A stretch of 32,924 nucleotides of DNA. Source: a virus. Made by a program: the position numbers and the translations under genes. Each line of letters opens with the position of its first letter. Within the stretch, counting starts at the first letter, position 1. The DNA lies in the IMG/VR virus record IMGVR_UViG_3300045965_000212, positions 1 to 32,924 of that record; one strand, written 5' to 3'. Under the pieces are notes generated by a model. It saw only the letters and a list, made by a program, of their open reading frames with translations. It made no database searches and had not been told where the DNA came from. Shown here piece after piece: positions 4,212 to 21,483 of the stretch.

Positions 4212-5638
4212 TCGTGCTGCTCCACGCACTGCTCTTCCTCGTGCTGGCCTGGGTGCCAGCGTGGGCTCAGACCACCTATCACACCCGTCAGCAGGCCCAG
4301 ACCCGGCAGGGGCGGACCCTCCCCGCCGGCAGCGATAGCTACACGTGCCAGCAGGCCACGTCGCCACAGACACCCAAAGGCAGCGTGAATGGCGGCATCA
4401 GTTGCCTGGCCGGAGGCGATACCCTGCTGATTGGCCCGGGCACCTACAACGAGATCGTCGTGACCTACTATAGCCAGGCCACCTGTCTCAGTGGCGACGC
4501 CGCCGTGCAGCAGCCCTGCGCCGTGATCCCGAACGGCCTGGACCCGGACCGCCCGACGCGCCTGCTCGGCACAGGCCAGGCGGTCATCTCCCCCAGGGGC
4601 AAAGCCAGCCCGGGAGGCGGCGGCATCCTCACGGCCTATGACCAGTCGCGCGCGCTGCACATCGAAGGCCTGCGCTTTGTGGCGGATAACACCCCGGGCT
4701 CCGCCGTCGGCGTGCACCTCGGCCACAGCCAGTACGTCACTGTGACGCGCAGCGAGATCGCCGGCAACAGCCTCCAGAGTACGGGCGCGCTGCTGGCGTC
4801 CTCCGGGCAGAGCCGCTACCACACGCTCACGCACAACGAGGTGCATCATGCCGGCCAGCAGTGCAACCCGCGCACGCAAACCTCGCCCCCCTGCCCCCAC
4901 GGGCTCTACATCCAGGGGCAAGATCACCTCATTGCCGATAACTATGTGCACCACAATACCGGCTATGGGGTGCAGGTCAGCGGGGAATCGGGTGGCCTGG
5001 CCCGCGTGGTCGTGACGCGCAATAGAGTGGCGTACAACCAGGGCGTCGGCATCCGCGTGCAGGGCAGCGACCATCAGGCCACCGCCAATCTGCTCGTCGC
5101 CAACGGCCTGGGGATGACCATCACGGGCACCGCCCTGATTGCGCATAACACGTTTGACGGCGTGCATCCTGAGACCGCCTACGACGATCCCTTTGGCCTC
5201 TGGGTCGATGGCACCGGCAGCACCATCGTCAACAACCTGTTCACGCGCCAGCAGTCGGCCTGGCTCCTTATGCAACGGCGAGACGGCTCGACCTTCGTCC
5301 CGGTCGATCCGGCCTGGGCACACCACAACGGCGCCGACGTGAGCGGCAACGTCGGCGCCACCATCGTCCACCCCCTGGACACCTGGTATCGTGACGCCGC
5401 CAGTGGGGATTACACGCTGCCCAGTACGTCACCTGCCATCGCCGCCGGGGTGACGGGAACCGGGGTGGACGTGGATCTGGTGCACCATGCCTACCAGACT
5501 CCGGATCTGGGGAGCTATGCCGCCAGCCCCCAGGTTCCGCCCACGCCCACACCGCCCGGGGCCATGGTGTGCCGTGGGGAATTAGGGGCGAAGGGGATGA
5601 TCGAACTGCTTTGTAGCCCGCAGGAGGGCCGCCGATGA
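4196..5638 (+). CDS. Secreted right-handed parallel beta-helix protein (NosD / pectin-lyase-like fold)
   Basis: The protein has 480 residues. It starts with a signal peptide: a long hydrophobic core (ILIVLLHALLFLVLAWV) and a likely signal-peptidase site after AWA at about residue 24. The mature part reads as parallel beta-helix coils with many Asn-x-Val/Ile turns (ADNYVHHNTGYGVQVSG, VTRNRVAYNQGVGIRVQG, IVNNLFTRQQ). The opening segment, a GDTLLIGPGTYNE motif, and the DxGSYAAS-type end are typical of DUF1565/NosD-like beta-helix proteins. A GAGGAG ribosome site precedes the ATG. It is by far the largest gene of the left operon. It could be a secreted polysaccharide-active enzyme or a surface protein; no catalytic residues are assigned. 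It lies far from the tail-fibre region and on the other strand, so it is not an obvious virion tailspike. Confidence 0.75.
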   Translation: MPTILIVLLHALLFLVLAWVPAWAQTTYHTRQQAQTRQGRTLPAGSDSYTCQQATSPQTPKGSVNGGISCLAGGDTLLIGPGTYNEIVVTYYSQATCLSGDAAVQQPCAVIPNGLDPDRPTRLLGTGQAVISPRGKASPGGGGILTAYDQSRALHIEGLRFVADNTPGSAVGVHLGHSQYVTVTRSEIAGNSLQSTGALLASSGQSRYHTLTHNEVHHAGQQCNPRTQTSPPCPHGLYIQGQDHLIADNYVHHNTGYGVQVSGESGGLARVVVTRNRVAYNQGVGIRVQGSDHQATANLLVANGLGMTITGTALIAHNTFDGVHPETAYDDPFGLWVDGTGSTIVNNLFTRQQSAWLLMQRRDGSTFVPVDPAWAHHNGADVSGNVGATIVHPLDTWYRDAASGDYTLPSTSPAIAAGVTGTGVDVDLVHHAYQTPDLGSYAASPQVPPTPTPPGAMVCRGELGAKGMIELLCSPQEGRR

Positions 5639-20138: not shown

Positions 20139-20166
20139 TCGATACGAGGTATAGTTATGTTATGAT
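20139..20166 (+). promoter_or_regulatory. Promoter-like sequence for the plus-strand cassette (extended -10)
   Basis: The -10 hexamer TATGAT (20161-20166) is preceded by TGT (20158-20160), an extended -10 arrangement. A weak -35, TCGATA (20139-20144, 4 of 6 matches), lies 16 nt upstream. The predicted transcription start, about 20172-20174, coincides with the first base pair of the leader's outer stem. The surrounding sequence is AT-richer than the neighbouring phage genes. This is sigma-70-type by pattern only. Confidence 0.55.
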
Positions 20167-20172
20167 ACTGAC

Positions 20173-20249
20173 GTGGTAAGGTGTGGGTCGCTCCCACAGA
20201 CATGCCTTAACCATGTCAGCCTTACCACATACACCTGTTAAGGAGGTGT
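20173..20249 (+). promoter_or_regulatory. Structured leader: three-way junction plus Shine-Dalgarno hairpin with complementary loops
   Basis: Outer stem GTGGTAAGG (20173-20181) pairs with CCTTACCAC (20220-20228). Inside are hairpin 1, TGTGGG/CCCACA (20182-20187/20193-20198), and hairpin 2, GACATG/CATGTC (20199-20204/20212-20217). Then ACACCT/AGGTGT (20231-20236/20244-20249) forms a hairpin over the AAGGAGG ribosome site. The 7-nt loop of hairpin 2 (CCTTAAC, 20205-20211) is the exact complement of the 7-nt loop of the ribosome-site hairpin (GTTAAGG, 20237-20243), allowing a kissing-loop. AGGTGT also occurs at 20179-20184, so ACACCT has an alternative partner. These repeats could instead be DNA operators for a repressor. 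Confidence 0.65.
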
Positions 20250-20252
20250 CCT

Positions 20253-20609
20253 ATGTCCCGCATCATGTACGGTTTCGTTGGTGTTGTCCTCCTTGTGGCC
20301 ATGTTTCTCATCAAAGACATGGTCAATCCTACTTACCCTGCGCATGCCAAAAACGTTGCCCACACGTTTTGTCGAGATTTCGGCAACATTGCTGCCACTG
20401 TCGTCCGAGCAAGAGATCGTGGAACCATCCCATCATTGCTTCTCCAAGAGATACGAAATAGTGCCGTGACCTATCCCATACCGATGCCAGGCGTTGATGC
20501 CATGAACACAGAGATCGTTCTCTATGTATATGGCAATCCGCATGTGACAGAAACATCAGCCAGGCAGCGTATAGAAACACTGTGTCATCAAGTCATCCAC
20601 GAAATGTAA
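20253..20609 (+). CDS. Membrane-anchored protein of unknown function, first gene of the immunity cassette
   Basis: The protein has 118 residues. The N-terminal span (about 5-21, MYGFVGVVLLVAMFLIK) is a signal anchor; the rest, about 95 residues, is probably periplasmic and contains two cysteines (FCRDF, TLCHQ). A very strong AAGGAGGTG ribosome site lies in the structured leader. It is oriented against the surrounding tail operon and starts the run of membrane-protein genes that includes superinfection immunity. No family recognised; a role in exclusion or membrane is inference from context. Confidence 0.65.
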   Translation: MSRIMYGFVGVVLLVAMFLIKDMVNPTYPAHAKNVAHTFCRDFGNIAATVVRARDRGTIPSLLLQEIRNSAVTYPIPMPGVDAMNTEIVLYVYGNPHVTETSARQRIETLCHQVIHEM

Positions 20610-20621
20610 AGGAGCCATCCC

Positions 20622-20819
20622 ATGTCTGATGTCACAGGTCCACTTTTACTGCTATTTCTGATCTTCATGTACTTCTTGCCTGCTGCCAATGCTTACTGGC
20701 GCGGCCATCACAATGCCGAGCCCATCTTGATTATCAATCTCCTGCTCGGCTGGACGTTCGTAGGCTGGGTCGTTGCCCTGGCGTGGTCTGCCACACAAAT
20801 CATCGACAATCGCGTGTAG
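20622..20819 (+). CDS. imm: Superinfection immunity protein (T4 Imm-like family)
   Basis: The protein has 65 residues with two membrane spans. It fits the Imm_superinfect pattern: LLFLIFMYFLPAANAYWRGHHN, then IINLLLGWTFVGWVVALAWS. The family member T4 Imm blocks DNA injection by superinfecting phages at the inner membrane; homologues are widespread in bacteria and prophages. An AAAGGAG ribosome site precedes the ATG and the gap to the upstream gene is 12 nt. Function is inferred from the family; specificity towards a particular phage is unknown. Confidence 0.8.
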   Translation: MSDVTGPLLLLFLIFMYFLPAANAYWRGHHNAEPILIINLLLGWTFVGWVVALAWSATQIIDNRV

Positions 20820-20828
20820 GAGAGCACC

Positions 20829-20969
20829 ATGGATCACCAGCATATCCATCATTGCCACTGCCAGCATACGCATCGGCATACCTCTATGTGGACCATTTCC
20901 CCCTGGGTCATCTGGTTCACCATCGGGAGTATGGTGCTTGGGTATGGCCTTCTCATCGCTTTTCTGTAA
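20829..20969 (+). CDS. Membrane microprotein with histidine/cysteine-rich N-terminus
   Basis: The protein has 46 residues. The first 18 hold eight histidines and two cysteines (HQHIHHCHCQHTHRH), followed by one membrane span (about 24-45, WVIWFTIGSMVLGYGLLIAF). A weak AGGAGAGC ribosome site lies 5 nt before the ATG. It sits between the immunity gene and a coiled-coil membrane gene in the same orientation. The His/Cys cluster suggests metal binding, which is inference. Too short to assign to a family. Confidence 0.55.
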   Translation: MDHQHIHHCHCQHTHRHTSMWTISPWVIWFTIGSMVLGYGLLIAFL

Positions 20970-20980
20970 CGAGGGATGCC

Positions 20981-21229
20981 ATGCCAATCACCTTTGACAC
21001 ACACAAATTGATTACCCGCCTGACGCAGGGGCAGATGTCCCTGGAACAGGCCGAAGCCGTGTCCGATGCACTGCAAGAAGCGGTCGAGGGCAGCATTGGC
21101 CAGCTCGCCACAAAAAGCGATATCGCCGATTTGAGAACCGAACTGAAACACGTCAAATGGATGATCGGCGTCAATATGACCCTTGTGGTGCTGATCCTCG
21201 GCAAACTCTTACTCTTCATGAAACCATAA
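20981..21229 (+). CDS. Coiled-coil, C-terminally membrane-anchored protein (DUF1640-like)
   Basis: The protein has 82 residues. Residues about 1-58 are helical (FDTHKLITRLTQGQMSLEQAEAVSDAL, then ATKSDIADLRTELKHVKWM), a pattern shared with short DUF1640 / coiled-coil CCDC90-like bacterial proteins. A C-terminal membrane span follows (about 62-80, GVNMTLVVLILGKLLLF). Ribosome site CGAGGGATG. It has the same plan as the next gene, so the two are probably distant paralogues. Confidence 0.65.
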   Translation: MPITFDTHKLITRLTQGQMSLEQAEAVSDALQEAVEGSIGQLATKSDIADLRTELKHVKWMIGVNMTLVVLILGKLLLFMKP

Positions 21230-21249
21230 CCATTAGGAGAGACTGTCCC

Positions 21250-21483
21250 ATGTCGTCGATTAATTTCGAACTCTACCAGGCTCTGCAATCCGCCGGAACC
21301 CCTGAACCAGAAGCCCGCCAGGCCGCCATGGAAGTCGCCACTATGGGTGGTATCCTCGCGGTCCTTGCCGAACGGGTCAACGGGATCGACAGTAAGCTTA
21401 ATGTCGTCATCGGCGTCATGCTTGTGGGCTTTGGCGGCATCCTCGCCGCCCTGTGGCAAATCTTCCTGCGCTTGCCGCGTTAA
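21250..21483 (+). CDS. Coiled-coil, C-terminally membrane-anchored protein
   Basis: The protein has 77 residues: a helical N-terminus (NFELYQALQSAGTPEPEARQAA), an AERVNGIDSKLN segment, then a membrane span (VVIGVMLVGFGGILAALWQIF). A TTAGGAGAGA ribosome site is 8 nt upstream of the ATG. It is the last gene of the cassette; its stop TAA lies in a GCGTTAACGC palindrome (21477-21486) shared with the stop of the convergent tail chaperone gene. Confidence 0.65.
   Translation: MSSINFELYQALQSAGTPEPEARQAAMEVATMGGILAVLAERVNGIDSKLNVVIGVMLVGFGGILAALWQIFLRLPR

Follow-up and report, generated by a model that had tools for sequence, protein, structure and literature searches.

The window, i.e. the whole stretch of viral DNA analysed here (32,924 nt; IMG/VR record IMGVR_UViG_3300045965_000212), carries terminase, portal, tail terminator, and tape measure genes on its minus strand. 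Five plus-strand genes (20253-21483), flanked by a tail-region gene and the tape measure gene, are oriented opposite to these late genes, which pass antisense through the cassette:

20253-20609, plus strand: first cassette gene, 118 aa, N-terminal hydrophobic segment, phrog_2315 (function unknown)
20622-20819, plus strand: second gene, superinfection immunity protein (PF14373 / phrog_1039), 65 aa
20829-20969, plus strand: His-rich protein with a hydrophobic C-terminal half, 46 aa
20981-21229, plus strand: protein with a coiled coil and a hydrophobic segment, 82 aa, CCDC90-like match slightly under the cut-off
21250-21483, plus strand: small putative membrane protein ending in IFLRLPR, 77 aa

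This cassette is a moron, that is, an accessory cassette of a tailed phage: it has a promoter of its own (recognized as a sequence match only), an orientation opposed to that of the late genes, and a gene content that varies at the same slot. A terminator was sought behind the cassette and none was found, and a host search with the portal protein in about 900 genomes gave a best match of just 45-46% identity. The product of the second gene matches PF14373 with an E value of 3.9e-16 and 59.1 bits (curated cut-off 27.9); the other cassette genes are small, and most of them encode a hydrophobic segment. The IFLRLPR-ending putative membrane protein matched no family at the curated cut-off and has homologues in the cassettes of two of the related contigs described below, L087 (2779-3012; 58%, immediately after its leader) and L088 (about 1866-1991), and a weak homologue of the phrog_2315 protein (26% identical and likewise assigned to phrog_2315) is encoded by the second gene of the L007 cassette (5276-5620). 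With respect to the tape measure protein, its conserved N-terminus AIAGSLVVTVSAKTDAF (minus strand) extends 21 codons upstream of the first ATG (20038) without an ATG, GTG, or TTG, and an ATC codon (20101-20099, minus strand) aligns with the start ATG of the L007 homologue; an AUC start is possible for the window protein.

The region in front of the first cassette gene contains the promoter elements and the hairpins P1 to P4, which are as follows:

20150-20155, plus strand: distal -10-like hexamer TATAGT, recognized in the sequence 11 bp upstream of the proximal one
20158-20166, plus strand: extended -10 TGTTATGAT, the proximal promoter element, with TATGAT at 20161-20166 preceded by TG
20168-20176, plus strand: CTGACGTGG, complement of CCATGTCAG at 20211-20219; candidate alternative helix given an upstream start
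20173-20181, plus strand: 5' strand of P1, GTGGTAAGG; 9 bp, closing a three-way junction
20182-20198, plus strand: P2 hairpin TGTGGG-TCGCT-CCCACA, arms 20182-20187/20193-20198
20199-20217, plus strand: P3 hairpin GACATG-CCTTAAC-CATGTC, arms 20199-20204/20212-20217, loop 20205-20211 complementary to the P4 loop
20220-20228, plus strand: 3' strand of P1, CCTTACCAC, pairing with GTGGTAAGG
20231-20249, plus strand: P4 hairpin ACACCT-GTTAAGG-AGGTGT, arms 20231-20236/20244-20249, loop 20237-20243 complementary to the P3 loop
20240-20246, plus strand: Shine-Dalgarno sequence AAGGAGG, with AAGG in the P4 loop and AGG in the P4 stem, 6 nt before the ATG at 20253

The stems and loops proposed in the initial annotation are present in the sequence at these positions, and, in agreement with that annotation, the start predicted from the proximal -10, 7 nt past it at 20173, coincides with the first nucleotide of P1. 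The start site is ambiguous, because two tandem -10-like elements are present; the paired hexamers (20150-20166) could be a tandem promoter or a protein site. For an RNA starting at 20173, the P1-P4 hairpins constitute both the MFE and the centroid structure in folding predictions (-36.8 kcal/mol). Since a different long hairpin is preferred in the prediction when 34 nt of upstream sequence are added, the P1-P4 fold of the window depends on the start site.

The P3 and P4 loops had been described as exact complements over their full length, which they are (CCTTAAC, 20205-20211; GTTAAGG, 20237-20243). A scan for two hairpins with stems of at least 5 and loops of at least 6, the loops being fully complementary and located within 60 nt, gave one match in the window, namely this leader; neither 200 dinucleotide shuffles of the window (6.6 Mb) nor 2.7 million strand-bases of other real sequence contained a match. 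In the nested fold alone, the loop bases AAGG are largely free (0.70-1.00 unpaired), and the stem bases AGG are paired. Calculated as free duplexes, kissing loops not being handled in three dimensions by the folding tools, loops 3 and 4 pair with -6.6 / -5.6 kcal/mol, and P4 alone has -5.9 to -6.9 kcal/mol. P4 and the loop-loop ("kissing") interaction together should hide the ribosome site, because the loop pairing of about -6 kcal/mol is similar in energy to P4 itself.

Homologous leaders were obtained in two ways. A search with the tape measure protein led to L007 (with the near copies L008 and L009), whose tape measure protein is 52% identical and which carries a leader with 75% identity in the same slot, and pattern scans of viral contigs, each requiring different parts of the leader, led to L087, L088, L091, and L157. 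The leader of record G001 is identical to that of the window, and the set analysed below consists of six distinct leaders (window, L007, L087, L088, L091, and L157), with one copy per record. The remaining pattern hits (L085, L086, L089, L093-L156, and L158-L167) were discarded as chance matches in which the fold was absent by eye, as were, after inspection, all 37 hits of the leader pattern in the genomes of 84,980 species. A blastn comparison of the leaders with phage and plasmid records gave no genuine match, and the RNA model R3, applied with a weak first filter, had no matches in 46 and 246 genomes. As had been presumed at the outset, no named leader with this layout was recovered: the window and the five homologous loci gave zero matches to Rfam 15 at the gathering threshold, and scans at E <= 10 returned unrelated chance hits only. 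A literature search in which few subscription journals were covered yielded no comparable phage leader and no description of a structured leader for superinfection-immunity moron cassettes. A conserved leader peptide was considered and rejected: in the window, a GTG frame from 20173 stays open as far as a TAA within the P4 loop, whereas the corresponding frame in L007 ends after a few codons.

All six leaders possess the three-way junction, the ribosome-site hairpin, and loop-loop complementarity along the entire loop, and the P3 and P4 loops are exact complements in each of them. Transcripts from the +1 position are predicted to adopt the same P1-P2-P3-P4 layout, P3 being weaker or partly displaced in class B of the two classes. 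Class A (window, L091, and L088) has the loops CCTTAAC/GTTAAGG, and class B (L007, L087, and L157) the loops CTTCAC/GTGAAG together with an insert starting with CGTAAGC between P2 and P3; one loop-loop pair is A-U in class A and C-G in class B, and both loops of class B lack the outermost pair. The Shine-Dalgarno sequence in P4 and the start codon behind P4 hold their positions in 6/6 leaders, and each of them has a -10-like hexamer at about the same distance from P1, accompanied in five (window, L091, L088, L087, and L157) by a second one as a tandem spaced by 10-11 bp. The P2 loop and its three closing G-C pairs are invariant in 6/6 leaders, including those from a search in which the P2 loop was not required. 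The insert of the class B leaders (L007 5770-5857, minus strand; L087; L157) contains a GTAAG that could pair, with one bulge, with the P3 loop CTTCAC, and it is possible that this insert acts as a local competitor of the kiss.

Compensatory changes are distributed over most of the structure. In the joint alignment, 3 pairs of P1, 3 outer pairs of P2, and 1 loop-loop pair are changed on both sides (7 pairs, 17 cells), the P1 pair at columns 5/62 taking the four types U-A, C-G, G-C, and A-U; in the hand alignment, compensatory changes are seen in P4 as well, whereas P3 varies by G-U changes and mismatches only. The covariation looked for on the basis of the initial annotation is thus present in P1, P2, P4, and the loop-loop helix and absent from P3. 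Of the cells in the joint alignment, which was built with the structure model and is biased towards it but is in agreement with the hand alignment, 97.8% are paired. The covariation score is 0.312 compared with 0.140 in shuffles (0/500 reach it) and at most 0.071 when slid; the number of double-changed pairs and that of pair types do not exceed the shuffles, 31 and 57 of 500 of which, respectively, reach them. A model built from class B only finds the class A leaders with E values of 5e-9 to 2e-5 over 0.93 Mb, and a model built from class A only finds those of class B with E values of 1.8e-7 to 4e-3. The covariation comes from six leaders in which P3 and P4 hardly vary and in which the P4 loop is itself constrained as Shine-Dalgarno sequence, and given the one class split, that between the loops may represent a single evolutionary event rather than independent replication. 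On the plus (sense) strand, 7 cells are G-U and 1 is A-C, and selection therefore probably acts on the plus-strand RNA. Among the marks of a structured cis-regulatory leader, covarying pairs and a position overlapping an expression signal of the gene behind it were found.

The leader is not tied to one genomic environment. Identity among its members is 62-88%, compared with 42-54% for the flanks upstream of the -35 and 44-55% for the coding starts, except for 76% between L091 and L157; these flank and coding values are mostly what unrelated DNA would give, and the downstream genes differ from leader to leader. The leader is located opposite the tape measure gene of the window, L007, and L088 and beside the head-closure region of L087, L091, and L157, where its neighbours are Hc3 (phrog_578; L087 and L157) and phrog_12985 / Ad3-like genes (L087 and L091), as in P22-like phages. 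The gene adjoining the L091 leader was judged by its start, PxLPNFCGPSG, which resembles that of the L157 Hc3 protein. There are two kinds of site and two phage types, and the loop class is independent of the phage type. Conservation of the leader amid unlike flanks and genes, with a loop class that does not track the phage type, points to transfer of promoter and leader as one unit. The description of the locus as the control region of an immunity cassette applies to the window, where gene 2 exceeds the PF14373 cut-off; among the cassette genes tested, the Imm domain is confined to the window, and the remaining cassettes encode other small proteins. Judged by these gene contents, the leader is not specific to immunity genes.

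Very probably, the element is a real, conserved, structured, and formerly undescribed 5' leader RNA; it probably functions as a translational brake or switch. The reading that we prefer, and to which we assign a fairly good probability, is that of a promoter-borne 5' RNA leader, some 80 nt long, which rides with reverse-oriented moron cassettes and in which the kiss masks the Shine-Dalgarno sequence, possibly as a fixed brake. The three-way junction and P1 would form a frame presenting the P3 loop to P4; the kiss between the two loops would stabilise P4 and cover AAGG, the part of the Shine-Dalgarno sequence left free in the nested hairpin, so that the translation of the first cassette gene would be low by default. 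Of the RNA switch or kissing-loop control suggested in the initial annotation, a control of translation is retained on the strength of the Shine-Dalgarno position in the P4 loop and stem of 6/6 leaders. The switch part fared less well: the second copy of AGGTGT (20179-20184, in addition to 20244-20249), which had been proposed as a mutually exclusive partner of ACACCT, exists in the window, but this partner is absent from 5/5 homologues, and no ligand pocket is visible. The leader might simply be a brake that never switches. The invariance of the P2 loop suggests a partner acting in trans, and the GGG-UCGCU-CCC hairpin would be the most probable place for a protein or RNA to dock and strengthen or break the kiss. 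An extended version, in which a pocketless mobile leader fully kisses the Shine-Dalgarno loop and a phage or host factor recognizes the invariant P2, confining the release of accessory membrane proteins to a particular stage of infection or lysogeny, is regarded by us as tentative.

The best rival is based on the alternative helix CTGACGTGG/CCATGTCAG (20168-20176/20211-20219) and supposes a start-site or read-through switch: RNA starting at or upstream of 20168 would form this helix, with disruption of P1 and P3 and release of P4 from the kiss, whereas RNA from 20173 would kiss. The helix retains 7-9 of its 9 pairs in all six leaders, with a swap from A-T to G-C at one pair in L157; it is the MFE structure of the L091 RNA when this is extended upstream, it also belongs to the MFE of the window once more upstream sequence is included, and the tandem -10-like hexamers of 5/6 leaders would suit such a switch. 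The inverted repeat overlaps the predicted start. However, most of this conservation is not independent, since the helix uses the conserved P1 and P3 strands; it contains mismatches in L157 and L087, and the MFE structure of the window RNA still includes the P1-P4 fold after an upstream extension by 6 or 11 nt. We consider the start-site switch rather unlikely. That the structured 5' end serves chiefly mRNA stability or transcription, by 5'-end protection or put-like antitermination, with the loop-Shine-Dalgarno pairing being secondary, would agree with the start of P1 at the predicted first nucleotide and with the late genes running antisense through the cassette; as it leaves the complementarity between the P3 loop and the Shine-Dalgarno loop in two classes unexplained, it is given little credence.

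Two further explanations concern what might bind the element. A ligand riboswitch with the kissing loop as expression platform can be conceived by analogy, because the layout would bring the loop of a junction domain to that of a ribosome-site hairpin, like L5 and L13 in cobalamin riboswitches (PMC10653944). Neither the window nor the five homologues match Rfam, the junction linkers are minimal in class A and different in class B, which argues against a conserved pocket, and the genes downstream of the leaders share no metabolic theme, so that a riboswitch of this kind appears very improbable. The initial annotation had also considered that the inverted repeats might be DNA operators bound by a repressor or activator. 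The elements are indeed located at a promoter, and a protein might bind the -10-like repeats with their spacing of 10-11 bp, but the arms vary with compensation, which an operator read by a protein does not need, and their spacing is variable owing to the class B insert. With the excess of G-U (7) over A-C (1) cells on the plus strand also opposing it, this explanation is considered extremely unlikely.

The control of phage accessory (moron) gene expression is poorly known, and a portable leader whose fold persists through changes of genes and phage would represent a regulatory element under selection of its own. The six natural variants with their two loop classes allow a direct test of translation control by a kissing loop, and they raise the question of what, if anything, reads the invariant UCGCU hairpin; if the tentative version set out above is true, accessory membrane proteins would be freed solely at a certain stage of infection or lysogeny.

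Several known systems share individual traits with the phage leader. In common with the superinfection-immunity morons (T4 Imm-like, PF14373), the leader cassettes consist of reverse-oriented accessory genes with their own promoter among late genes; the Imm domain itself occurs in the window cassette alone. The closest mechanism is that of translational cobalamin riboswitches (btuB, env8HyCbl), in which L5 of the junction domain kisses L13 of a downstream hairpin and thereby governs access to the ribosome-binding site (PMC10653944). In the phage leader, the loop of the junction domain and that of the ribosome-site hairpin are complementary and covary, and a kiss between them would be the counterpart. 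Unlike the cobalamin riboswitch, the phage leader has no RF00174 match, is smaller, and is built on a three-way junction without a cobalamin core; moreover, its Shine-Dalgarno sequence is located inside the kissing hairpin, and all 6-7 loop bases can pair. Purine riboswitches combine a three-way junction with a loop-loop contact between the two junction arms, whereas in the phage leader, which has no conserved pocket and no Rfam match, a junction arm would contact a hairpin outside the junction. The ColE1 RNA I/RNA II and TAR/TAR* kissing complexes are intermolecular and have loops of 7 and 6 nt, respectively, that pair over their full length; these are the two loop sizes of the phage leader, in which the pairing would take place within one leader. 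In the RepZ mRNA of IncI/IncB plasmids, a long-range loop-loop pseudoknot activates translation and is blocked by an antisense RNA. Translation would be set by leader loop pairing in both systems, but the pairing in the phage leader would cover the Shine-Dalgarno sequence itself and repress.
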